A stretch of 64,000 bases of DNA from Thuidium tamariscinum (Eukaryota > Streptophyta > Bryopsida > Hypnales > Thuidiaceae): the NCBI GenBank assembly GCA_947034885.2, contig OX344751.2, forward strand, positions 41,817,082 to 41,881,081, given 5' to 3'. Each line of letters starts with the position of its first letter. The first letter of the stretch is position 1. The translations under genes were made by a program, and so were the position numbers. The notes below the pieces were generated by a model that saw only the letters and a list, made by a program, of their open reading frames with translations, ran no database searches and was not told the origin of the DNA. Below, in pieces: positions 12,601 through 57,942 of the stretch.

Positions 12601-14904
12601 ATGGACGGCTGTGGATACCCAACGCCCCTTATGTTTTGTCAAAAGATGAAAAGTGGGAATTCCTTGATACCCTGCATTCCATAAAGACTCCATCAAGGTA
12701 TGTTTCGACACTACACAAGTGCATTCAGGATGGTAAACTGAGGGGCCTCAAGTCTCACGATTATCACGTGTTACTACAGCAAGTTCTACCGGTGTGTGTG
12801 AGTAAAGTCGGCAATGAGAAAGTAGTGGGCTCAGTGATGCGGTTAAGCCGAGTGTTCCAGAGACTTACAGCGAAGGTTATCAATCCTGAGAACTGCTTGC
12901 AGGAAATAGAGGATGTAGCAGAAACTTTGTCCTCATTGGAAAAAGAATTCCCACCATCCTTTTTCGACATAATGGTGCACCTCACAATTCATCTAGTGGA
13001 AGAATTGTACATTTGTGGACCAGTCCACGCGAGGTGGATGTACCCGTATGAGAGGTACTTTAAAGGTCTCAAGACTTTCGTGAAAAACCTGGCTAAGCCT
13101 GAAGGCAGCATTGCGCAAGGTTACCAAGTGGAGGAGGCCTTGGGTTTTGTAACTGAGTACATGACAGCGTATAGTCCCACGGCTAGGAGGGTGTGGGATA
13201 GCAAAGAAGATCCAACAATGACAGACGAAATAGTTGAAGGGAAAGGAAAGCCTCGTCTTTTGTCCGAGCAACTGCGGAAGTGGATCCATGAGTTTGTCCT
13301 CGACAACGCTGTGCAACTGGATGTCTACCGGGAGTAAGTTGCTTCCTATTCCAATTCAGCCGAATTTAAATAGTAGTGAGTGATGAATTTTGACAGTGTT
13401 GCATGCAGTCAGTGTAGCATCCCTGTGACGTAGAGGTACGCGAGGAATGTATTTGAAAGTCATTCAATGGAACTTATGCATGCAAGTACGGATTTGTTAT
13501 TCAGAAATCAGTACTCAGAAATTGGACTGTGGAGGCAGGAATGAGGTCTGTGAGTGTGAGCTTGGAGCGTGCTGTAAGTGAACTTTGAAGTCGGGGGACG
13601 TCACAAATTGTTTACTTATAACTTTTAGCTTTGGCGACTTTAATTTGTGGAAACCGTGCATGTGGATACAGAGTTAAACTGTTATGTGCACAGCACTGTG
13701 CGGAATTAAACTTCGTAGAAAACATTGTAGTAGACCTCGGAGTCTGGAAAAGGAAGGACAAAAAGAGTAATGAATATTGTCAAAAATCTCGTGTGTCTTT
13801 TTTGATTTTGATTCAGTGATATAGGCTTACGTATTGTGTTTCTCAAGTTTGTTTTGAAGTGTGTAATGGGACGAAGAAACATGGGAAGTACTTCGGGGGC
13901 CAGTATGGAGGATCTGCTTGAACTTTGTTGTTTTGTGTACCTCATATGCCACAGGTGTAATCATACATAGTGTTATGAAGTTTTGTTGTCAGAGGAGATG
14001 ACTGTGTCATTGGCTTTGCAGGCGCTACCACCCTTATCATGGTAATCGAATTGCAGAGCGTTTGCAATCTCGAAGAAGTCACCCTCGAAGGAGGGGGCAA
14101 AGAGTTGTACCATATCCAGCGGACCTGGAGGAGCCCATGCTGTTTGAGGGCTGGTTGGAAAAACATGTGTCGGAGTCATTAGAGTCAAGCGTGGGGGACA
14201 TTGAGGCTGATGTTGTTTGTTTGTCAAAACCTCCAGCTCAGGTGGCTACGAAGTACCATAGCATGTGGGCATTTGGCAACCATTTGCGTATTGCCAGCGT
14301 GGAGAAGCATCTCCGGACATGTGATTCTGGAGTTGCTGCGACTTTCTCTCAACCATGTAGATCTGGTCTCCGAGACCGCAATTTCGTGATGGCAGATTTG
14401 GAGTACGTGGGTGAGTTGCAGGAGATAGTGGAGGTCGACTACAGTGGACTTTGTGTCATTGTCCTCCTGTGCAAGTGGGTCAAGGCCAATTACAGAGGCA
14501 ACTCAGCAACGGTGAAGAAGGATAAATGGGGATTTACGTTGGCTAACTTCAACTCCATTCTGCCATTTGGTCCCGAGTCCTTCGCGTTCCCAATGCACAT
14601 TGATCAAGTTTATTTCGCAGATGCCCGCGAGGAACCAGGCTGGAGGGTTGTTCTGCGAAAGGAGGTAAGAGGGCGTCGAATATATGGAAGCCAAGGAGAC
14701 TCAGCAAGTGGCCCTCTTTTTGCTATTGGATCAGATGTCGACCATGAAGGCCTCCGTGTACCAGAGCACGTTATGGAGGAGAATCCGGGAAGAGCTGCAA
14801 CCGGGAGAGTTATGCGTGAAGACGAAGCGCTACTTTACGATGACTGGGGAACTAGAGACCAAGATTTGGGGGAGTCAGGTTCATCTTCCGAAGGAGAGTA
14901 TTGA
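9677..14904 (+). CDS. TNP2-family CACTA transposase (TNPD-like)
   Basis: Four exons (9677-9859, 10148-11614, 12435-13333, 14022-14904) join in phase into 1143 aa ending in TGA. Residues about 22-57 (YPCACRRCHGG...) match the transposase-associated Cys motif at the start of this family. The core shows DGVNPYG (Asp about 336), an ALRDLLQLW-like segment, NDFPAYG (Asp about 432) followed by TKGYKGCPCC, and LDPMHCEKNV (Glu about 564). These are the positions where the family keeps its proposed acidic catalytic triad. A DUF4218-like segment follows at about 689-793 (HLVEELYICGPVHARWMYP) and a DUF4216-like one at about 976-1062 (YVGELQEIVEVDY, WGFTLANF). The enzyme would cut element ends in the nucleus. 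No break is seen in the frame. Introns are 288, 820 and 688 bp. The start ATG at 9677 was chosen because it precedes the Cys motif. Confidence 0.88.
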
Positions 14905-24449: not shown

Positions 24450-25995
24450 TTAGTATAATGCTTCCTTGACCGCTTTTGATTCAAGTGATTGCTCAAATTT
24501 GGAGACATTACAAAAGGAATGGGGGAGCTTCTCTTCCTTGACTACTCTTGATTTGAGTTATTATTAGAGCTTAAAGACTATGCCAAAGGAAGTGGGGAGC
24601 TTATCCTCTTTGACCACTCTTGATTTGAGAAGGTGTTCTAACTTGAAGACATTGTCAAAGGAAGTAGGGAGGTTGTCTTTCTTGACCACTCTTGATTTGA
24701 GTGATTGTCGAAACTTGAAGACATTGTCAAAGGAAGTGGGGAGCTTGTCTTCCTTGACCACTCTTAACTTGAGTAGTTGTTCAAGCTTGGAGACATTGCC
24801 AAAGGAAGTGGAGAGCTTGTCTTCCTTGACCACTCTTGACTTAAATAGCTAATTAAGCTAAAAGACATTGCCAAAGGAATTAGGGAACTTGTCTCTCTTG
24901 ATTACTCTTGATTTGAGTAGTTATTCGAGTATGGAGACATTGCCAAAGGAAGTGGGGAGTTTGTCTTCCTTGATCACTCTTAATTTGAGTGATTGTTGGA
25001 CCTTGAACACAACACCAAAGGAAGTGGGGAGCTTGTCTTCCTTGACCGCTCTTGCCTTGAGTAGTTGTTCAAGTTTGAACACATTGCCAAAGGAAGTGCA
25101 GAGATTGTCTTCGTTGACTAAGCTTATTTTGAATTGGTGTTCCAACTTGGAGACATTGCCAAAGGAAGTGGGGAGCTTGTCTTCCTTGACCACTCTTGAT
25201 TTGAGTGGTTGTTCAAGCTTGGAAACCTTGCTTAAGGAAGTAGCAAGTTTATCTTCCTTGACCACTCTTGATTTGAATTAGTATGAAATTTACAAACCTT
25301 GCCAAAGGAAGTGGGGAGCCTGTCTTTTTGAACCACTCTTGGTTTGAATAGGATTTGGTTTAAGCTTGGAGACACCACCAACAGAAGTAGGGATCTTCTC
25401 TTTCTTGTTCACTCTTGATTTGAGTTCATGTTAACACTTTGTAGCCTTACTAAAAGAAGTAGGGAACTCGTCTTCCTTGAACTTTTATTTTATTTGTTGT
25501 TTAAGCTTGGCAGCCTTACCCGTGGAGGTGGACAACTTTTCTTTGTTCATCTCTCTTAGTTTGAGTGGTTGTCCACGCTTCATTGCCTTGCCAAAGAAAG
25601 TAGGCACCTTGTCTTCCTTGATGGAACTTTTTTTGAATGATTGTTGAAGCTTAAAGACATTGCCAGAGGATGTCGGGAGCTTGTTTACCTCGACCACTCT
25701 TAATTTATAAGATTGTTCTGTTTGGAAACTTTGCTATAGAAATTGGGGGGTTTGTCTTCTTTGATCACTTTTAGTTTGAGAGGTTGTTCAAGCTTGGTGG
25801 CCTTGTGTTGGAAAGTAGGGAGCTGGTCTTCCTTGACCACTTTTAGTTTGAGAGGTTATTCACGCTTGGCAACCTTGCCAAAGGAATTGGGGAGCTTGTC
25901 TTCCTCAACCACGTTTAGTTTAAAAGGTTATTTAAGCTTAAATACCTTACCAAAGGAAGTAGGGAATTTGTCTTCTTTGACCACTTTTTGTTGAA
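24450..25995 (+). pseudogene. Leucine-rich-repeat gene remnant (72-bp repeats)
   Basis: About 21 tandem 72-bp units each encode a 24-residue LRR of the form LPKEVGSLSSLTTLDLSSCS. This type is common in plant LRR proteins, notably in early-diverging land plants. The best open stretches are 24580-24852 and 24868-25281. The last third (from about 25300) is frame-shifted and diverged, and stops interrupt the frame between and after these stretches. No NB-ARC, kinase, signal peptide or start exon is seen. Retroelement copy A ends only a few bases to the left, so the 5' end of the gene may have been displaced, although the left flank of copy A shows no LRR sequence. The repeats would form a solenoid for protein binding if expressed. 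Confidence 0.7.
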
Positions 25996-35789: not shown

Positions 35790-37316
35790 CTAGTGATGAA
35801 GATTCCTTCTCGTGCGATCGTAGCTACCCACCCACTCAGGTTCACTCAACAGGAGGTCACGATCCAAAAGATTACTAAAGCACTTCACTCTCAGAGCCAC
35901 GCTCTCCTGTGACGTGATGCGAGCCTGCCCCGCATACGTGAACGTCTCGGTCACGTACTGCGGCACGCTACGACCCAACTGCTGCAAGCCCCAGAGGTAG
36001 TTCCAGAGTGGGATGAGCACCGTATCCGTGACTTTGCCCTCGAAGGTGAAAGGGAATATGGCATTGTAATGGGGGTTGAGTATACTGCTCTCCGGACTGG
36101 AGTCGATGAGCAAGGTATTGGACGCGTTGGCCTTGACGGCGTGCCTGGAGAACGTGGACATGGGGTCTCGGTCCTTCCTCCACACTTTCTTGTGGAGGAC
36201 CTTGAGCCGTAGCACCCCCCTTGGGTGATTCACGAATTGCACGGACACCTCCCTTTGGAAGCAAGGATCCGGACGACTACCTGTGGGATGCACCATGCAA
36301 GGGACATTCCCAGTCGACATGCTCCGCAACATTCCCCGTCGATCCACGTACGACTCCTCGCAGATGCATAACAGGCGGGACTCCATCATGGTCAGGGTGA
36401 GACAATCCTCCATTGTCATGATCTCGACTTGCGGGGCCGGCATACCCGCGAAGAGGAACCTGGCGAGGGGGCGCCCGACGTACCCTGGCAATCTCGTCCA
36501 CACGACCACGTGGAAGTACTTGCACAGTCCTCGGAGGAAGTAGCGCATTCCGGAGCGACACTGCACGGTGTAGTCGCCAAAGACATGGCGCGTGCTCGGC
36601 CCGTAATCGGGCTCCGCCGTCGGTCCCTTGGGTCCCTGGAAATTCAACACCTGCCCCCCGATAAGCCGGGTCTTGCAGAGGACGCCTTCCATCTCCAAGA
36701 TGATGAAATATTTTTTCTTCGGGGGTCGTGCGGGGGAGGGCGCTGCAGGCAATGGCCGTGGAGTCTGCGCGTAGAAAAGCCCGTGCTCCCGCATCCGCTT
36801 GTCAGAATCCCATCGTCACGAGGATCCGTCTTAACAGCGGATATAGGGATGAATATAGGATCCTACTTTAAACGTCGGATGTGTCACCAAATACGGGATC
36901 CTAGTTCAAAAGCGATTAGACAACCACCGCATGATACTATAGCAAATAGAGGATGGAAAAGATATGGAACCTGACCTTCATGACGACGTCCGTAGTCTGG
37001 GCGACTTGAACGACTGCTCCTTCCGTGTAGACTAGAACCGCCCCGGCCGGCGGAACCTTTCTGTCGAGCTCCTCCGCCTTAGGAGTGGCGACCTCTAGCG
37101 CCACAAGAGCGACAACGTCCACCACAACAGCATCCACTACTATAGGATCGCCGACTTCCCTCTGAAGAAGAGCGTCTTCCACTGCAAGAGGTCGAGCGTC
37201 TTCCAAGGCGACGGGGGACAGCGTTGCATTTTCCCGTCGCCGAGGAGTGGAACTTGGGCGCCGTAGTGGCGCATCCGTGACAAGCCGTGGCATTGGAGCC
37301 TCGTCATGCAGCAAAG
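35790..37316 (-). CDS. NIF/FCP1-domain protein, probably catalytically dead
   Basis: Two exons on the minus strand join in phase: about 37316-36977 (start of exon taken from an AG acceptor; the true first exon may lie upstream) and about 36808-35790. The first exon is Val/Ala/Glu-rich without a known domain. The second holds an FCP1/NLI-interacting-factor fold: KKKYFIILEMEGVLCKTRL, RSGMRYFLRGL, YFHVVVWTRLPGYVG, NTLLIDSSPESSILNPHYNA and a C-terminal LWNYLWGL. Active members have DLDxT, where the first Asp is the phosphate acceptor, and later a DD pair. Here both Asp of the first motif are Glu (EMEGV) and the later pair is DS. It may be a pseudophosphatase or adaptor. It lies just downstream of, and co-directional with, the ParB-like gene. 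The frame is open to a TAG at 35790. Confidence 0.65.
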
Positions 37317-45557: not shown

Positions 45558-47096
45558 GCTTCCCCGGCTACTACAGGGTTCTCTAGAGGCGGATTCTCCC
45601 CTCCTACCTCGAGAACGTCGTCTTCCTCTTGCGTGCCTCCTTGCTGCCCTTCCTGACTCTCATCTTCGGAGTCACCCTCATCTTGGTCATTCTCAGCTTC
45701 CGGGTTTGCAATCTCATACTCTATCATTGCAGCCCCTACCTCGTAATCTTCCCTCTCCTTCTCTCTCAAGAGGTCTAACGATTGGTATAGATGAAACAGG
45801 AATGGTGAAATGGAAGAGGGTTTAGACTTCCCAATCCCTTTCACCATTCTGTTCATCCGGTCTCTCATGACTAACCCCTAATCTATTCTTCGGTCCCCCG
45901 ATAGCGCACCAAAGACTGTGTTGGCTACGGTGACCGTAATCCTGCTAGGCCTATCCGGGTTCAGGATCGCCATCATGAACCGCAATAGCCTCTTGTGTCT
46001 AGCAGACACACACTTGGCCACTGAAAAGCCGTCCTTCGGGTTGGTGGGCCTGCGGAACTTTCCCTGGTGGAATTTGTCCGTCCTGGTGCCCGTCGCATCT
46101 CCTCCTTGCTCGAAGGTGTACACCTTGCGCCACATAGCCGCGCTCCACTCCTTTGGCGGTGCCCGGACCGTCCCCTTCCACTCGTTGGTCTGGCCGGTCA
46201 GCAGCTCCTCTACCATCGCCTCATCCTTCAGGTTCCAAAGATGAGCTATGAACCCCTCGCAGCCCATCTGCCTGAGGTCTTCCTCCAGCTCCCGCTTCTC
46301 TTGCGCGTCAATCGGCACGACCGGATTCACATTTCGGAAGGCTAGAATTAGCTCTTCTTGCACCTCTTCTGCCATCGCTCACTTGACGCCTAAACTATCT
46401 AGGTGCGGTCCAACTTGACTGAACCTCCCGCGCTCAAGAACCTATTAGCTAGCGTAGGGCTAATCGCTCAACTATGTACCAGACCGGATTGACAGATTAT
46501 CTATCCCTTCTCTCTGTCTGTAGACCGAATATTCTATCTCTGGCCGGAAACTCTTTCTCGAATTGTGTGCAAGAAAGTGGCAGGACTTGGCCCTGCTTCC
46601 CTGGTCTTATACTTTTTCCCCGGCATTAATTACTGACCGTTAGGTTTAAACCAGTCTGGTCACGTGGGAGAGTTCCCGACGATCTCTAGACTCGGTAGCC
46701 ACTCATTGCCTATCCGGTCTCGGTCGCTAGGTGGGCGGAATCCGGGTTTTCTTACGCTGTCCCTTAACGTAGTTTCTAGTTTACGGTCTGGGGTTTTCCG
46801 GTTTCCGGTCTTGGTCCTAATTGTGCGTAAAAACTAAGAAAAAAAAAAAATGGGGATTGAATAGATCCCCCTTCCCGTATTTTGCTTAAGGACCTGCTTA
46901 GATGAATTCTAGGTTGCCACAGCGGGAGTTGGACTCGTTGAAGCACTGGAACGAGATCGAGCTCCAACACAACATCTGCAATATCAATCCACAATGAATT
47001 ATGTCAGAATGCAGACCGACATTACATCTGCGCAAGCGTCGTGAGATGGAACTGGAAATGCATGCTCCGGCAAGGCGAGAAGTAACGGGCGCTCAC

Positions 47097-47305
47097 CAAA
47101 CATGCGGAGACGGCCTTTGCACCGGCGAAGACAAGCATGACGGTTCCCTGATCTCGACAGAACTTGTCAATGAAGTGGAGGTACACCTCGTAGCGGAGTT
47201 CGCGAATAGACAGGAGCCACGGATAATCGTGGCGACAGACCTCCCGATGTCGTAAGAATTGCGGTCTATCCGGAAAAGCACGGGGCTTCTGGCTGTAGTA
47301 GATGT
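47097..47305 (-). CDS. Exon 3 of the ParB-like gene: candidate methyltransferase motif I
   Basis: The acceptor CATAG precedes 47305 and the donor GTGAGC follows 47097. Its phase (2 bases to complete a codon, then 69 codons) fits the phase-1 end of exon 2, giving D-IYYSQKPRAFPDRPQFL. The segment KFCRDQGTVMLVFAGAKAVS has the hydrophobic-strand-then-FAG shape of the AdoMet-binding motif of DNA methyltransferases (VLDxFAGxG). The next stretch, in one frame near 46972-46925, reads DVVLELD, like the acidic motif after it, but the splice phase as I see it gives a different frame. No DPPY- or PC-type catalytic motif was identified. Confidence 0.4.
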
Positions 47306-47855: not shown

Positions 47856-48051
47856 CTAATAGCCGGCCCACATCACGACACCGAGTCTTATACATGTCAT
47901 CCTCCGTGGTCAAGGCCTCGTCCTCAACCTCCGACAGTCGTGCCCCCGCATCCTTGACGTGAACTACTTTGGAGTTTACGTCTGACCGGGGAGATCGCTG
48001 CAAGTACATGATCTTGTCTTTGAACTTATACGAGGTGGACGGCTCGCCTTT

Positions 48052-51000
48052 TGTGGCAACCTAGAATTCACCTAAGCAGGTCCTTAAGCAAAATACGGGA
48101 AGGGGGATCTATTCAATCCCCATTTTTTTTGTTGTTTTCTTAGTTTTTACGCACAATTAGGACCAAGACCAGAAACCGGAAAACCCCAGACCGTAAACTA
48201 GAAACTACGTTAAGGGACAGCGTAAGAAAACCCGGATTCCGCCCACCTAGCGACCGAGACCGGATAGGCAATGAGTGGCTACCGAGTCTAGAGATCGTCG
48301 GGAACTCTCCCACGTGACCAGACTGGTTTAAACCTAACGGTCAGTAATTAATGCCGGGGGAAAAGTATAAGACCAGGGAAGCAGGGCCAAGTCCTGCCAC
48401 TTTCTTGCACACAATTCAAGAAAGAGTTTCCGGCCAGAGATAGAATATTCGGTCTACAGACAGAGAGAAGGGATAGATAATCTGTCAATCCGGTCTGGTA
48501 CATAGTTGAGCGATTAGCCCTACGCTAGCTAATAGGTTCTTGAGCGCGGGAGGTTCAGTCAAGTTGGACCGCACCTAGATAGTTTAGGCGTCAAGTGAGC
48601 GATGGCAGAAGAGGTGCAAGAAGAGCTAATTCTAGCCTTCCGAAATGTGAATCCGGTCGTGCCGACTGACGCGCAAGAGAAGCGGGAGCTGGAGGAAGAC
48701 CTCAGGCAGATGGGCTGCGAGGGGTTCATAGCTCATCTTTGGAACCTGAAGGATGAGGCGATGGTAGAGGAGCTGCTGACCGGCCAGACCAACGAGTGGA
48801 AGGGGACGGTCCGGGCACCGCCAAAGGAGTGGAGCGCGGCTATGTGGCGCAAGGTGTACACCTTCGAGCAAGGAGGAGATGCGACGGGCACCAGGACGGA
48901 CAAATTCCACCAGGGAAAGTTCCGCAGGCCCACCAACCCGAAGGACGGCTTTTCAGTGGCCGAGTGTGTGTCTGCTAGACACAAGAGGCTATTGCGGTTC
49001 ATGATGGCGATCCTGAACCCGGATAGGCCTAGCAGGATTACGGTCACCGTAGCCAACACAGTCTTTGGTGCGCTATCGGGGGACCGAAGAATAGATTGGG
49101 GGTTAGTCATGAGAGACCGGATGAACAGAATGGTGAAAGGGATTGGGAAGTCTAAACCCTCTTCCATTTCACCATTCCTGTTTCATCTATACCAATCGTT
49201 AGACCTCTTGAGAGAGAAGGAGAGGGAAGATTACGAGGTAGGGGCTGCAATGATAGAGTATGAGATTGCAAACCCGGAAGCTGAGAATGACCAAGATGAG
49301 GGTGACTCCGAAGATGAGAGTCAGGAAGGGCAGCAAGGAGGCACGTAGGAGGGAGACGAAGTTCCAGAGGTAGGAGGGGAGAATCCGCCTCTAGAGAACC
49401 CTGTAGGAGCCGGGGAAGCCCAGAAGGTAGATCCGGTCTGGGAACAGGATCCCTTACTAAAGATCCTGCGAGACCAGGATGACTTTAGGAAACACCACCT
49501 AGAGGAGAGAGGGTTGTTGCGAGGCATAAGCCACGCTCTAGGCTCTATCCCGCCCACCAAGATCATGGAGGTGTTGGGGGAATTAATTCAGGAAGCACAT
49601 GATAGCCGGGACAGAGAGGAGGTACTTCGGTTGACGAATCAGGTCTCAACCCTAAGGAGGGAGCTCCATCACGCTAAGGAGGAGCTGGATGAAGAGAGAC
49701 GCCTCACCACACAAGCCCGGAACACACTCGGAGAAATCGGAGAGTTCATCACGCATCCGGGCGAGGTCGTCAACAAGGCCATGCTTTTCGACAGGAAGGT
49801 GTTGGAAGCAAGCAAAATGGTGGGTCCCCAGATGCTTACAGCTCTGGTGGCCTACAACAAGAAGATGGAGGCAGCGTTGGAGAAGTGGCAGTCAGTAGTC
49901 ACGGAAGTCCAAGCTGGTTTTGCTCCGGTCTCAGGACCGGAAGAGCCAAAGATGGAGGAGGAGCAGCCGAAGGATCAGCCACCACCAGCAGCTGTCGAGG
50001 TAGAAGCCGGCACATCCGCATCGGCGAAGGAAGAAGGGATTAGGTCTGAAGCCGTGGCGGAGGAACCGGTCCCACCGACCTGGATTGAAGAACCCAGGGT
50101 TTCTCAACCCGAGAAGACCAAGGAGCCGGAACCCGAGTTGATTGTGTTGAGGGAGATAATCCGGGGAACTACACCACCAAGGGAGAAGACCAAGTTCATC
50201 ACCTTGCTGGATGATTCTCCAAGCAAGTCATCACCCACGGTCGTCACACAACCGAAGACCGGAGGGGAAACCAAGGCGACGGTGCAGGTCCGCTCCATAC
50301 TAAAGACCGGATCCGGATCCGGGTCACCAAGCAAGGGACCAGCCCGGACCGCCGAGAAAGTGGGAGAGCAGACCCCACAAAGCAAGATAGTGCACCACCC
50401 GCCCATTACCGGATTCAAGAAGAAGACCACGGAGACATCCAAGGTGAAGCGGAAGGCCCGGGATGAAGAGGAAGAGGAGTCAGACGAGGAAGATGAGGAC
50501 TCGGAGGAAGAGACCGACTCCGGTGATGAGTCAGAACAGTACTCAGACGCAAACCAAGTATTGGCAGAGACCAAGCAGACCAGGGCCAAGGCGCGGGGTA
50601 AGACCAAACCGAAACCCAAGCCCATCAAGATGTATCGGTCTCCGAAGAAGCAGCCATCCCGGAAAGGTGCATCGCTTGTCAAGAAGGTGAGGAAGTAGAG
50701 AAGCAGTAAACACCAAGTAGATAGGAAGGCGGCTAAAGTAGAATATATTTAGAATAGGTAGTTTTGAACCTAGACCGGATCCAGATTAATAGGATCTGAG
50801 ATCCTATTTTGTTGGTATTCTTGGAGTTTTGTGGAAGTCAACCCGCCCAAGTTGTAGAGGAATGTTACGTGGCATTCTTGGCGGCTAAGGTTGATTCCGT
50901 CTGTACTTTTAGGTTTTCTGGTAGTTTAGTATTTAAACCCGTTTCGTAATTGAATCCGGGCGCGCATTATGTTATCTTATTTTCGCAAGTTTTTTGTGTT

Positions 51001-52188
51001 GCAAATACAAGTCAGAACCTTTCTGATTCACTCTGGAGTGGACTATGTGCATGGGACCCTGTCAAAGTCTTGTGGTGATGGTTAGAATTGTAGCCTTGTG
51101 TGGATAGATGTGTGCCTGGATGTTCAGTTTATCCGGTCTCTGGACTTAAAGTGAATTCAGTTTTGATAGGGAATTTGTGCAGGATCCCACAGTGTTTTCT
51201 GAAATAGGCCTAGGGAGTATTCTATAGGAACAGACACTTGTAGAGTCTGGGTTTGAGATTGGGGAGGACTCGGCCAAATGCCAACTGAATGGTGATCCGG
51301 TCTCTGTAGAAGAAAGAAGGACTAGTTCGGAAATTCAGCTCTCTTGCACAAGCTACCGCCTTTATTCTACCAAGGCTTAGACTAATTGGGTAATCTGTCG
51401 TTGTAGTCGTTGTTAGGATTAGGCAGGAGTACTTGCGTGACCTGCTGGGTCGGATTGGTCCCGGTCCAGTTGTGAGGTATTTCGGTCTGGTCGTAGTAAT
51501 AGTTTCTTTTTCCTTATAAGTGGAACTTCTGACACTTTAAAACTTGAAGGGTAGGAGTAAGCTTCCTTCCTAAATGCCCAAACAAGCAGATCCCTCTTAT
51601 TAGCGAGGTAAAACTTACATTTGGTTACTAAATTTAGGGACTGGACCAACTCATAGCATCCGGTCTTTAGCTCATATATATAGTAAGGATAAGTATAAAC
51701 GCGAATGAAACATACTCGTACAATATCTATTTAAATTTGGAAAGATAAAGGATTGATCTGGTAAGTCAAGTCTAAGGACATCTTAGGAACCTTTGAGACC
51801 AAGACCGGATTAGTCTTTTGCTTGGGTTTTGCTGGGGTAACCACTAACGTGTTCCGATCTTTTGTCAACTTTCGACCAAATCCTTTGGGAACGATACACG
51901 AGTCACTTTAAGGCTAATTTAGTACATTATAACACCTTAGAGAAGGAATTGTGCTTTTTTGTGCTACGACAAAAGGACAATGTGGCCATCGACCTTCACG
52001 ACATCGACGACGACGCTTTGGAGAAGCGACTTTCTGAGGCGACCAAGGCTAGGGAGGAGTACAAGGTCATGGCCGACGCCGAGGCGGGCACGCAAGGGGC
52101 GGAGGCGGGCACGCAAGGAGGGTCAAGCTCGGGCGCGGGTACATTATAACGCCTTAGAGAAGGAATTGTACTTTCCTGTGCTACGACA
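48052..52188 (+). mobile_element. LTR-class retroelement unit, copy D (fossil, nearly whole; carries host DNA)
   Basis: Bounded by TGTGGCAACC and TGCTACGACA, with the 5-bp duplication CCTTT on both sides (48047-48051 and 52189-52193). It is inserted in exon 2 of the ParB-like gene. A TATA-like box lies near 48365. The coding region 48602-50698 is gag-like: its first 220 residues (HKRLLRFMMAILNPDRPSRI and neighbours) resemble a plant transposon protein domain, followed by a coiled coil and a long acidic, Pro/Glu/Lys-rich tail. It has about one break. The last 48 bp of the unit occur twice (51924-51971 and 52141-52188), with 169 bp of host sequence between. No paired LTRs are seen. Confidence 0.75.
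51972..52140 (+). repeat. Captured fragment of the ParB-like gene inside copy D
   Basis: These 169 bp match, with about one difference, the reverse complement of about 38448-38616, the gene sequence directly abutting the 3' end of copy C (encoding KDNVAINLHDIDDDALEKRL in the gene). In copy D they are bracketed by two copies of the unit's terminal 48 bp. This fits read-through from copy C or a relative into the flank, followed by a template switch back. Confidence 0.8.
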
Positions 52189-53296
52189 CCTTTACAGTAC
52201 ACGTACTTGCATTCGTGGCGAAATTGGTGCATGGGGAAGAAGTCAGTCACCATCTGCTCTACGATGGGTGCCCTGTTGGAATTGAAGATGAGCATCCACG
52301 TGTTCACCGTCGACGAAATGGAGTTGTCGGAGACGGTCTTGAGGGACTCCAAGATCGTCTTGTGGCCGGTTGTGGGATCCGACTTCTCGACCTTGGGGAA
52401 GTGACGGAAATCCATGATTCCGACTTCGTAGAACGCAATGCTTGCTGGACCCGAATGATAGGTTGTCCACCTCTCCTTCCTGAAGCACAACAACTGTGGG
52501 TCGAAGGCTGACTTTGCGCGAGACCACTTGCAGATGGAGCCTCGCGAGCACTGGCTGCAGTAGTCATGGCGCTTGTCATTGCACATGATCCGGTCGAGGC
52601 CATCGAGGACGTCGTTGGGGGCGTCCATCTTCGTCTTTCCGGACCCGCATTTGTTCCGCAACCACTTTTGGCCGATCCGCATCAAGGTCCACATGTGATG
52701 GCCCGTGATGCAGAGCTTCTTCTTCAGAGCGCTCCACTTGTCGGGCACCACCTCTCCGTCGTGGAGCACCCCCTCCACATCCCTCATTTCCATTCCCAGC
52801 ACTCGGTCGTATATCTCCTTCACCAACACGGTTTTTTGCTTTTTGTTGGTCGTCCACTGCGCGAAGGGAATGGCGGAGGTCCAGTTCTTCGGCCTCTGCA
52901 AGTAAACCTTGGGCGGCCTCCCGAGGATGTGGGTGGCGAGTTCTCTTATGGTGGCATCATCGAGACCTGCTAGGTTCTTCAACTGGTTCTGATTGATGGC
53001 CTGGAACTTGTAGATTTTCATGGCCCCGTCCTTGTCCGTAATCTCGTTGAACTAGCAGCCCGAGTCGATGTCGTGCAGTGAGCCCGACTCGTGTCTCTTG
53101 AATACCTCCTCCCTGTTGGACCACGTCTCGTTGGAGGCCATGATGATCTTCCGCTCTCCCATCTTGTCGAAGTCGATCTTTGGCCTCTTGGACCCTGGTG
53201 CCTGCTTCTTCCCTCCCACGGACTCGAAGCTCTACTCGACCTTGTCTTTAAAATCCTGCACACGGGGAGATCGTGTCAGGTTCTGCGAGGCACACT

Positions 53297-53459
53297 TCAG
53301 ACCGCGCGGTCTGATCTTGAGGGACTAGGACTATCAACAATAGCGACTAACGGATAAAGTCCCGAGACATTAGACCACGCGGTCTGAACCAGGGAAACTA
53401 AGACTGCACATCTGTGACTTCCAGACAACGACAAAACACTTTAGACCGCGCGGTCTGAA
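53297..53459. repeat. Intronic palindromes (3 copies)
   Basis: Three copies of the palindrome core lie inside the 225-bp first intron of the ParB-like gene: 53297-53314 (perfect TCAGACCGCGCGGTCTGA), 53370-53388 and 53440-53459. They make up a quarter of the intron. They are the same family as the upstream array. Confidence 0.85.
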
Positions 53460-54730
53460 GTTCTGATTCGATATTCATACCTCATAGTACTTGAAGTTGT
53501 CGTCTTACTGGGTGGCCCTCGTGTTCTTCCGATACTGGGCCGGCCGACCCGCGTTATCCCACAAGTGGCGGCAGTGGATGATCGTCGCAGGCAGCGATGA
53601 CAGGTACGGGCCGGTGACATTCCCATCGTTACACTTGCAGGACAACGCGTGCAAGTGGTCCTTGTTCGATGACCAGATGATTTCGCATGTCCACCTACAG
53701 AGCTTGTCCACCAGCAAAGCGTCGTCCACCTGAGTGACACCGGAGATGATCTCCTTGGCGGCCATCCACATGTGCTGGCCGTTGATGATCTTGAGCTTCC
53801 TTGCTCCGTGGCAATCGCTCCAGCACGTGGGTCTCTCGAGCGTGTCGGGCATCACTGTCAGAATTTTCTTGGTGTAGTTCACCTTGACCATGCGGTCCAG
53901 GACGGCCTCGATGCCTGCCTTCTCCAACGGCCTGAAGATGATTCCCGACTTCTCGTCGGCATGCACCATATCCTCCAAGTCCAACTCAAAGTAGCATCCC
54001 CTACCGAAGATGTATATGTAGTTGGACGCTTCCTTGAACTAGCGATTGGCCAACGCCTCCACCTTCAGACGCTTGCGCATCTCGGACTCGTGACCACGAC
54101 AGGGGTCCGGCTTGAAGTCCATCGCCACGGATAGCTTCGCCAGGACTTTGTCTGCAACGTCAACGACGGTGGATGGGTTGTCCACCCAGACGCCGTTCTC
54201 CTTCTTGTACGCCAGGCGTTGCGCCTCCTCTTTAGATAGCTCCGCGGAGTCCGCAATAGGACCTTGGGCGGAGGAACTCGGTGCCTCACGGGAATGCATA
54301 GGCTCCACGCCCTGTCGTCTCTGGCGGACAAATCTGTCTGCCTCATTCGCATCAGAGGTCGTCGCCTGCTCGACGTCCCTCTGGGGGTTCGCCTTCCGCT
54401 TGGAGGCCATGACTTTCGGTCGTGAAGTTGGACGAGCTTGGTCCTCAGCATTCTGCGCCGGAGACGGCGTTGCAGCAGGCGGAGCCTTGGATCTTCTACT
54501 CACTCTGGCCGGCTGACGCGAGCCGGACACTTCCAACGCACCTGGCAGAGCCGATGCCGGCGGGGGCCGGCTGCGCGTGCCCACAACTGAGCTTGAGGCA
54601 CCTACATTCCGAGTCTTCTTGGCGAGACGTCCTACCTGATCCATGACTCGTTTGTTCTTTCCCTGAGAGACAGAGTCCACCGTCAGCTTCTCCGTGTGGA
54701 TGGCGGTGCCCACCGTGAGGTACCTCTTGA

Positions 54731-54745
54731 TAGACTGCGCGGTCT
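54731..54745. repeat. Partial palindrome copy within exon 1
   Basis: AGACTGCGCGGTCT lies in the coding sequence of the ParB-like gene, where the minus strand reads ETAQS. It matches the array core except for one base. Confidence 0.6.
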
Positions 54746-55223
54746 CGAGAAAATCGCCCGTGTGGGCCTCGCAAGCGGCTTGAATATCTAGCATTAGGTT
54801 TTGGAATATGGGCGGAACGTGGCCGTAATTTTTCACCAGTCGCTCGGAACAGAAGGTCATTTTATCCTATACCCGAATGATGATGATTCCAAACGCATTG
54901 TTGCTTGAATTAATCACATCTATGAGGATGGCCTCCATAATTGCGACCATATTAATTACGACGAGGTTATAGAAGGATTTCCACCTCGCCCCTCCGTTCT
55001 TTGTGAATCCTAGCTCGAGACTAAATACGAGGGATTCCTCGAAGTTCGTCATTTCCACGGTCCATAAGGAATTGCTGGTCAGGAACTCTAGCGGCACCTT
55101 TCCCTCAACATCCGTTTCCCATGAATCGTGGATGAATTCAAGTGGAATGCATCGCAAGTAGCCCGTAAGGGGTGGCTCGCTCTCCAAGAACGACTCCATT
55201 ACTGTACACAGAACTAGTTCAAA

Positions 55224-56450
55224 TCAGACCGCGCGGTCTAAACCAATATTGGACTGGAACGACAGGTACTGTGATTGGCATGAGAGGGATTTCGAACCGC
55301 GCGGTCTAATTTTCATCTTCGCTCTCCCTAGTCTTACTCGGAATTGTCAATGGAATGGATCTGAATCACCCCTCAATGTAGTTCATACCTGACAAGTCCC
55401 AGAGTCGTCGCGTTCTGCCAACAAGGTTCAGATCGCGCAGTCTGAACTTCTCACGCCCCGATCCTTCAAGTCCATTCTGTTGTCCTAGCGCGGAACTAAT
55501 CCACAACTAGTTGCTTCGACTCATAGCTCCCTAGTCCCTCTACAAGATTTATCATTCCATGGTAAAAATTGAATAGCGCGGCTTGTCTTGTCGTGTAACT
55601 ACGCATTAGACATGTTCGTCTTCATAGCACACTTCCCTATGTTCAGAGCTTAGGGATCGAGGGTTTGTAATTGTTGGTTTCTATGGTTTTCTATTCACTA
55701 CTCGAGGATCAAACCGCGCGCTCTAATTCATCTTACTTCAGGGTGCCCTTGGTACAGAACCGACGTCTTCTGTATTCGAGTTTCATTGTGCATTGCACTG
55801 CGTCCGAGTGATCTATTACCCTTGACCTCAGTTGAAGGCTTTCTCTTTCAGTGGACTACAAGCGGTTTAGACCGCGCGGTCTGAAATGTTTCTTTGCCAA
55901 ATGCATGGGGCTTCTAGTACGATCTTCGAAGTACTTGTGGTCCATGGCTGCCAATGGTTCAGACCGCGCAGTCTACACTGTTCCTTCGATAAATAGAATT
56001 AGCCTGTAATAAGTTCTGTTGCGACCGTGTACGTGGAGCATTTCAGATCGCACGGTCTGAACTATTCTACCTCCCTGCGTTCTTCACCTCTGGTTATAAT
56101 TCTACATTACTGGCCATCTGCGTGTTTTGCCATGGTCCAGGCCGCGTGGTCTGAACTACGACAATGTCATGTTGGCTACACCCTTGAACAATCTCGTTTT
56201 TAACATCTTTGACGCTAGTGTCGGCACAGTTCAGACCGCGTGGTCTGAACTGTTCTTTCCTACATTCGTTGCACTCTTGCATAAATTCGTCTGCAGCATT
56301 CGGTGGACTGGGGTTGGCACGGTTTAGACTTGCGGTCTGAACCGTTCCTCTGTTACTTCGGCTTCGGAAACTACGACTACTCTTTACAGCATGCACTAGA
56401 GTGCTAGTTTCACGGTTCAAACCGCGCGGTCTGAACCATCAAACTAGCAC
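55224..56450. repeat. Palindrome array upstream of the ParB-like gene (11 copies)
   Basis: Copies of the core TCAGACCGCGCGGTCTGA, usually extended by GT/AC on the ends, are found at about 55224, 55291, 55426, 55709, 55865, 55957, 56042, 56134, 56227, 56319 and 56414. The last seven have centres 86-94 bp apart, mostly 93. The sequences between them are not alike. The outermost copy sits in a longer palindrome (56401-56450) with perfect 10-bp outer arms GTGCTAGTTT. Outer bases co-vary in some copies (AGTTC with GAACT at 56227; GGTTT with GAACC at 56319). All lie upstream of the gene's ATG at 55199. Bacterial ParB binds short palindromic parS sites near its gene. Whether these are binding sites is inference. 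A mobile palindrome family is the alternative. Confidence 0.85.
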
Positions 56451-57560: not shown

Positions 57561-57690
57561 TTTTTTAATTGTAACCGTACAAATTCTAACTAGACATGTT
57601 CGAGATTACATAGGAAAACAAAATACAACAATATCAATTACAGATTGGAAGATTATAATGTTTGATCACGGGGGTGTTAAAACTCTAAAA

Positions 57691-57942
57691 ATGGAAGATT
57701 AAAAATCATAAATGGAAGATTAAAAATCATAAATGGAAGATTAAACATCATAAATGGAAGATTAAAAATCATAAATGGAAGATTAAAAATCATAAATGGA
57801 AAATTAAAAATCATAAATGGAAGATTAAAAATCATAAATGGAAGATTAAAAATCATAAATGGAAAATTATAAATTATAAATGGAAGATTAAAAATCATAA
57901 ATGGAAAATTAAAAATCATAAATGGAAAGTCATAGATCATGC
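57691..57942. repeat. 21-bp minisatellite
   Basis: The motif ATGGAAGATTAAAAATCATAA repeats with an exact 21-bp period. The starts run from 57691 to 57922 without any insertion or deletion, giving 12 units with a few substitutions. The period is divisible by three, so the minus strand reads FMIFNLP repeatedly, which is a by-product and not a gene. Confidence 0.9.

Follow-up and report, generated by a model that had tools for sequence, protein, structure and literature searches.

The window analyzed here, a 64-kb stretch of the moss Thuidium tamariscinum (contig OX344751.2, positions 41,817,082 to 41,881,081), contains a broken gene, here called the INGQH gene after a motif in its product, and around it a cluster of palindromes. 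The gene belongs to a mobile family present in many copies, of which this one has decayed. Taken as a whole, the sequence comparisons suggest that it is probably a giant-transposon gene whose palindromes are specific to its subfamily and are read by the element's own protein. The palindromes are best read as putative binding sites for the product of this gene or of a paralogue, because they cluster at paralogues and because related subfamilies carry palindromes of their own in the same places.

Palindromes in the window and at close copies of the gene

With up to 3 mismatches allowed, the core AGACCGCGCGGTCT matches the 64-kb window 15 times. Between 53299 and 56432 lie 14 of these matches (0-2 mismatches), and the remaining one, at 13732, is weak, with 3 mismatches; dinucleotide-shuffled versions of the window gave a mean of 0.85 matches and a maximum of 4. 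A sequence-only reading of this DNA had claimed that 14 palindromes are confined to about 3.2 kb of the window, which these counts bear out. It had also placed them upstream of the gene and in its first intron. This holds for 13 of the 14 sites, 10 being upstream of the ATG at 55199 and 3 in the first intron, whereas a single palindrome, at 54732-54745, is located within exon 1. Four upstream palindromes (55226-55724) start at 55226, 55294, 55430 and 55711, and beyond them stands an array of seven (55869-56432) at a spacing of 84-94 bp, with units at 55869, 55961, 56045, 56139, 56233, 56326 and 56419. The unit at 56326 is a fifteenth, degenerate palindrome that is one base short. The three intron palindromes, at 53299, 53372 and 53443, lie inside a GT...AG intron at 53256-53480. 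None of the sites upstream or in exon 1 is assigned to a strand. Six more sites (up to 3 mismatches) are present in the 1000 bases beyond the window end (L077).

Within the array from 55869, the palindromes are 79% similar to one another (six intact units compared) and the spacers 50%, with shuffled spacers at 46% (standard deviation 3.7). The spacers have thus decayed to near-random similarity while the palindromes persist, which counts against passive, functionless repeats. The introns of the window and C6 copies, with the palindromes removed, scored 18 against a shuffled mean of 17.1.

The moss's own genome (363 Mb, 19 contigs) was searched with the 177-residue INGQH segment of the window gene (P0001, in which INGQH occupies residues 85-89), and 150 of 309 candidates were scored. 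Among these, 41 main matches, the window copy included, are more than 50% identical, some of them being fragmentary, and about 100 are distant, mostly 23-35% identical. A SAM_LFY domain, which is a plant family, is also encoded in this genome (E 1.6e-27). The 40 further main matches are 51-90% identical over P0001. Four close copies are 95-99.6% identical across nearly all of the 8.5 kb first compared, and the C6 and C8 copies are 94-99% identical over about 21 kb, save for about 2 kb found in C6 only. Judged from these alignments, the close family is a mobile unit. A considerable part of the INGQH-gene and DUF7869 matches listed falls on a single contig, C11 (17.5 Mb); we would guess that this concentration resembles a repeat-rich, perhaps sex-linked chromosome.

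Thirty close copies, with the window's among them, hold 151 palindrome sites, compared with 6.55 in block shuffles. Most of the sites in these copies keep a constant distance to the INGQH segment, near -1387 and -1457 bases ahead of it and near +53, +161 and +258 behind it. The exact 14-mer window core occurs 171 times genome-wide (control 0). Among the 50 such sites listed, 24 lie within 15 kb of a close paralogue, in flanks that make up 0.37% of the genome. Clustering of the palindrome at paralogues, which the sequence-only reading had proposed as a check, is carried by these sites, but not by another 24 of the 50, which lie away from the listed family.

A second gene of the same element, encoding a NIF/FCP1-like phosphatase, accompanies the INGQH gene. 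In a tally of 39 main NIF rows of 80, from which second pieces of split genes and weak matches were left out, 34 of the 39 are within 50 kb of a close INGQH gene. The protein of L040:2023-3090 matches Pfam NIF with an E value of 6.4e-11. NIF genes also follow the INGQH gene in distant subfamilies (L064, E 2.3e-12; L063, E 9.5e-8), so that the domain is present in three subfamilies.

Distant subfamilies, their transposon ends and their palindromes

In the case of the distant subfamilies, giant transposons with terminal inverted repeats (TIRs) could be recognized wherever ends were found. Six copies of one subfamily have both ends in common, with identical 22-bp termini (AACATCATATTCATTAATTTGG), and perfect 4-bp target duplications flank all six of them (TAAG, GATT, TAAT, CAAG, TACT, CTAC). 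Allowing up to 2 mismatches, the genome contains this terminus 87 times in forward and 92 times in reverse orientation (control 0). Of these 179 places 100 were listed, and 16 pairs of plus and minus termini were hand-picked among them. They are 20-49 kb apart, 14 of them 20-27 kb, and enclose an open reading frame (ORF) of the DUF7869 family in 15 cases, an INGQH gene in 14 and both in 13. One ORF of 905 residues between the TIRs matches DUF7869 with an E value of 2.8e-43, and from its size and place this protein is presumably the transposase. Of 945 DUF7869 candidates 50 were scored, and none of these falls below 64% identity to the query.

No match to the window core, with up to 3 mismatches, exists in the distant loci L043-L066, and perfect palindromes are scarcely prominent in L043-L062. 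Repeat and inverted-repeat searches revealed other palindromes there. When exon end and intron were taken together in 20 distant loci, the best 10-bp arms paired at 9 or 10 positions in 17 of them, compared with 4% of shuffles. The palindrome of the L065 subfamily is TTCAAGTAG-ATA-CTACTTGAA, with 20 sites (up to 5 mismatches) in a 26-kb element, against 0.2 in shuffled sequence. Upstream of the INGQH gene lie 11 of these 20, mostly at 79-91 bp spacing; 2 are in its first intron, 3 further on, and 4 upstream of the DUF7869 ORF. In the L063 subfamily, four upstream copies of TGCAGTTCAGCTCG-AAA-CGAGCTGAACTGCA were found.

We read the listed sites as following one plan in all types, approximately TTYA-NNN-CG-N2/3-CG-NNN-TRAA. 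Its outer bases are TTYA/TRAA (TATC or ATC in L057, L058 and L062), and an inner CG encloses two or three central bases. Variable bases lie between, namely GACC in the window and GCT, GGT, ACT, AAGT, GCG and others elsewhere, and these are used here to name the types; the AAGT type is without the inner CG. The palindromes sit upstream of the INGQH gene and in its first intron, and in four types also upstream of the transposase gene. Elements of AAGT and of ACT type are bounded by the same termini.

Exact genome counts are 186 for GGT, 146 for GCT, 114 for ACT and 64 for AAGT (controls 0, 0, 0 and 1). The tallies of nearness and exclusivity use 50 listed sites of each of these types and of the 171 window cores, together with the scored genes (150 of 309 INGQH and 50 of 945 DUF7869 candidates). 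Among 200 listed sites, 50 each of GACC, GGT, GCT and ACT, 116 have a listed INGQH gene within 25 kb, another 22 are near a listed DUF7869 ORF and 62 are near neither; each site was assigned to its nearest gene only, with gene rows on the contigs covered by the site lists. For AAGT, five genes of its subfamily account for 41 of the 50 listed sites, each lying no more than 5 kb from one of them. On the transposase side, 16 DUF7869 ORFs on C1-C5 were compared with the site lists: a listed site stands at most 1.5 kb upstream of 12 of them and downstream of 2.

For exclusivity, all genes in reach were considered, ten window-type sites on C1, which has no close paralogue, being left out. A listed site was found within 15 kb of 32 of the 49 genes, and all 32 have one type only (17 have no listed site). 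At 25 kb, 31 genes have one type and one (C3:368367) has two, its second type coming from beside a neighbouring gene. Palindrome type follows the INGQH protein tree. On a tree of 30 INGQH segments, ten type labels, with three rows lacking a clear palindrome counted as one label, need 9 changes, which is the minimum; shuffled labels need 18.5 on average, and 0 of 200 shuffles were as low. The GCT label alone needs 2 changes.

Candidate reader, proposed effect and rival explanations

It is highly probable that the palindromes are cis sites carried by the element and read by one of its own proteins. The reader is probably the INGQH protein, predicted to be a dimer: it is the likeliest candidate because termini and transposase are common to the types, whereas the INGQH protein changes fast (distant ones are 23-27% identical to the window's copy) and its gene bears the densest sites. 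A changing specificity would be hard to attribute to the transposase, since AAGT and ACT elements have common termini and the scored DUF7869 proteins are at least 64% identical to the query.

According to the mechanism proposed here, giant DNA transposons would carry the gene of which the window contains a decayed copy, and the palindromes would serve as the subfamily-specific cis sites of the element. A dimeric element protein, most likely the INGQH product, would read them in its own promoter and first intron, and the same protein would also read those in the transposase promoter. Such reading could control the element's gene expression, either as autoregulation or by countering host silencing, and the NIF-type phosphatase encoded next door perhaps takes part in this control. 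That the effect is anti-silencing rather than plain autoregulation is a tentative suggestion made by analogy, and somewhat less probable than its opposite; plain autoregulation fits as easily as anti-silencing of the VANC kind, compared below.

CpG content gives partial support for anti-silencing, as base composition differs too. In the palindrome-bearing module of GACC elements (L037, L040, L042, L088) the observed/expected CpG ratio is 1.03-1.06, and in their left part (L039, L041, L086) 0.48-0.51, a contrast that lasting local hypomethylation would give. Lasting CG hypomethylation appears not to be general, because the ratio is lower in the second subfamily, despite its palindromes, and in L063. 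Mean ratios are 1.02 (0.41-1.22) in 30 close copies and 0.81 (0.55-0.97) in 20 distant ones. Along the GACC elements the composition shifts sharply, from an AT-rich, CpG-depleted left part to a GC-rich, CpG-neutral right part; the palindromes of the C6 and C8 copies are in the right part.

A more far-reaching reading would see a self-recognition code, in which every subfamily has matching promoter palindromes and its own protein to read them, from a new family perhaps derived from ParB/DGQHR. Together with a phosphatase of the RNA polymerase II carboxy-terminal domain (CTD) type, the protein would un-silence or switch on its own elements only, and small non-autonomous elements would be parasites of the code. 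Taken with all its parts, this is a speculation that we regard as doubtful. As part of the same speculation, the architecture of such a code might consist of a conserved outer TTYA, a mostly conserved inner CG and variable bases between them.

The small elements of this speculation refer to solitary sites. The first four listed, all on C1 (L001-L004), are in one repeat of about 310 bp that resembles a miniature inverted-repeat transposable element (MITE), its copies being 78-84% alike. In L001, L003 and L004, TIRs of 32-36 bp have the palindrome just inside one or both of them. One reading is that this repeat could be a small element borrowing the site of the autonomous family's regulator. A decayed copy of the repeat is also present in the window at 267-530 (TIR arms 267-295 and 502-530), without a window-type site.

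Several observations weigh against our interpretation of element sites read by the INGQH protein. Concerning the protein, no DNA-binding domain was recognised, and on the INGQH tree near-copies cluster trivially. Concerning the sites, 3.5 kb of the close copy L008 contain no window-type site; the best intron arms pair at 8 positions in L045 and L052 and at 7 in L050, short of the 9 or 10 reached in the other 17 distant loci; for 24 of the 50 window-type sites listed there is no listed paralogue in a range of 25 kb, those of L001-L004 sitting in the MITE-like repeat away from the gene family; and among 50 listed sites each of GGT, GCT and ACT, 11, 16 and 11 have neither kind of listed gene (INGQH or DUF7869) nearby. 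Complementary double substitutions in window-type sites are not in excess, with 25 found and 21.1 in permutations, of which 387 of 2000 were as high (31 stretches, five overlapping loci excluded). Compensatory change as proof of palindrome function was dropped for this lack of excess. Concerning the element, no end was found in the about 21 kb compared between the two GACC copies C6 and C8, and no transposase match in the 27.5 kb searched on C6; by coordinates, among the matches listed, the two nearest GACC copies have DUF7869 matches upstream, at about 15 and 27 kb, on the opposite strand. Nor did the GACC stretches searched contain termini of the MITE or Sola type. In addition, the CpG ratio is 0.60-0.67 in the palindrome-bearing second subfamily (L064, L065, L084, L085) and 0.85 in L063.

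Internal or subterminal repeats serve as transposase binding sites in En/Spm or Ac, and the palindromes could likewise be bound by the element's transposase. The four solitary sites just inside the TIRs of the MITE-like repeat stand where transposase sites are expected, and other palindrome types occur near the DUF7869 ORF. This explanation is nevertheless unlikely, as in one element read whole the sites are upstream of and inside genes and not at the termini, and as elements with different palindromes have common termini and similar scored DUF7869 proteins. It is very unlikely that the palindromes are host sites which the elements recruited and which a family of host transcription factors uses. 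Transcription factor sites do typically occupy promoters and first introns, but a host factor is not expected to track the tree of the element's own protein, which the palindromes follow as they differ from subfamily to subfamily.

Even less probable is that the palindromes are passive, functionless repeats spread by tandem duplication and insertion. Some sites do lie in tandem arrays (a 210-bp unit in L037), and the lack of excess compensatory changes agrees with it; against this stand the near-random spacers between persisting palindromes, and the same positions taken by different palindromes in different subfamilies. The least probable of all is a true ParB-parS module that partitions or marks DNA. 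It would account for sites clustered at the gene, and INGQH is similar to DGQHR, the signature given in PMC4619093 for the ParB/Srx fold, within the DGQHR/GmrS/ParB-Srx superfamily. The partition role proposed by the sequence-only reading found no support, however, since the sites are located in promoters and introns of transposon genes.

Membership in ParB/Srx, to which that reading had likened two segments, was not supported by the sequence searches made (own genome, Pfam, NCBIfam, PDB, IMG/VR). A search of the genome with the ParB_N profile (PF02195) returned 0 matches, and Pfam and NCBIfam scans of P0001 and of proteins of several subfamilies returned no ParB, DndB or DGQHR family up to E 1. 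PDB sequence searches gave no ParB match; the only profile matches there named an ICE inhibitor (E 0.031 and 0.11) and were taken for chance. Among 68 IMG/VR stretches that matched a peptide pattern, none encoded a relative. Alignment to P1 ParB by hhalign gave a probability of 0.2%, a weak test in that the 47 ParB relatives used were 97-100% identical to P1 ParB. A single-sequence AlphaFold model of an INGQH protein had a mean predicted local distance difference test score of 34.7, too low for fold comparison. In 14 aligned INGQH rows N-G-Q-H is invariant and DGQHR itself does not occur, the D being N and the R position S, T or M. The ParB resemblance rests on the INGQH motif.

The window copy and comparison with known systems

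All gene parts of the window copy are on the minus strand. Exon 1 (53481-55199), defined by ORFs, translations and paralogue matches, encodes the N-terminal region, a linker and the INGQH domain. It is separated by the 225-bp first intron, in which sites stand at fixed offsets in most of 30 copies, from the 5' part of exon 2 (52188-53255), where translations and the splice model place a second segment, ITGHH. The splice model contains in-frame stops, 3 in exon 1 and 2 in exon 2, and the 3' part of the gene is interrupted by two inserts. Past the first (about 48058-52187), the gene continues at 47875-48057 (tblastn of the L037 ORF 6398-6913, 38% over 63 residues), and past the second a further C-terminal piece lies at 47067-47264 (tblastn, 74% over 66 residues). 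The partner phosphatase gene, at 35817-36782, is 42-46% identical to L040:2023-3090.

By eye, the C-terminus of the INGQH protein ends in an F-x-G-rich stretch (L037:6398-6913, L063:3403-3930, L064:2254-3630) with no Pfam match, which we take to recall motif I of N4/N6 DNA methyltransferases. The first insert contains a 50-bp direct repeat (51922 and 52139) and, by eye, long plus-strand ORFs from about 48601 onward. Elsewhere in the window, tandem repeats occupy 24461-25985 (72-bp unit, 21 copies) and 57677-57927 (21-bp unit, about 12 copies, 93% matches).

Bacterial parABS systems, like the gene described here, place a gene beside clustered recognition sites; the moss case differs in that ParB homology is unsupported by sequence and the context is a eukaryotic transposon. 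With the DGQHR/GmrS/ParB-Srx proteins, as far as the accessible parts of PMC4619093 describe them, the likeness is a hydrophobic-[D/N]-G-Q-H/Q motif, and the differences are N for D, S, T or M for R, and the lack of a profile match.

The distant subfamilies fit a Sola-like assignment, because 4-bp target duplications, TIRs and occurrence in a moss fit that superfamily. Sola elements have these features, are known from the moss Physcomitrella and in some cases exceed 15 kb, according to the accessible parts of PMC10741241 and PMC9033089, so that the large size is alike as well. The same parts of these sources mention no INGQH gene, NIF phosphatase or palindrome arrays. This likeness applies to those distant subfamilies in which ends were found. 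In an open-licence library no paper contains DUF7869, and among the papers listed there under the topics ParB, giant moss transposon, NIF, Sola and DGQHR none gives a description of this system.

The closest parallel concerns the VANC proteins, which bind short family motifs in intronic, intergenic and terminal non-coding parts of their own VANDAL elements and reduce methylation (PMC5735166, available excerpts, as in what follows on VANC). In both systems the element encodes a protein beside the transposase, and a family-specific motif is present in non-coding parts, including introns and the region upstream of the transposase; this feature, with the motif tracking the element protein, was found in the moss. 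Motif and protein diverge together in both, and in both the motif occurs also in an unrelated element, VANC6 motifs in AT9TSD1 (PMC5735166) and the window-type palindrome in the MITE-like repeat. On the VANC side stand DUF1985/DUF287 proteins and motifs of 8-9 bases, not described there as palindromes, with binding and demethylation shown (PMC5735166). On the moss side, the element has DUF7869, the INGQH family bears no Pfam name, the palindromes are of 20-31 bases on one plan with variable inner bases, and the partner is a phosphatase; DUF1985/DUF287 had no Pfam match in the proteins scanned. If our interpretation is true, the moss would join the Arabidopsis VANDALs as another example of transposons using a co-evolving pair of protein and motif to address their own DNA, differing in the protein and in motif architecture and with at least 5 counted motif types in one genome. 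The reading code could be learned from such a natural specificity series, in which inner bases and regions of the protein vary, and the escape of selfish elements from silencing without harm to the host would become directly testable in a plant.

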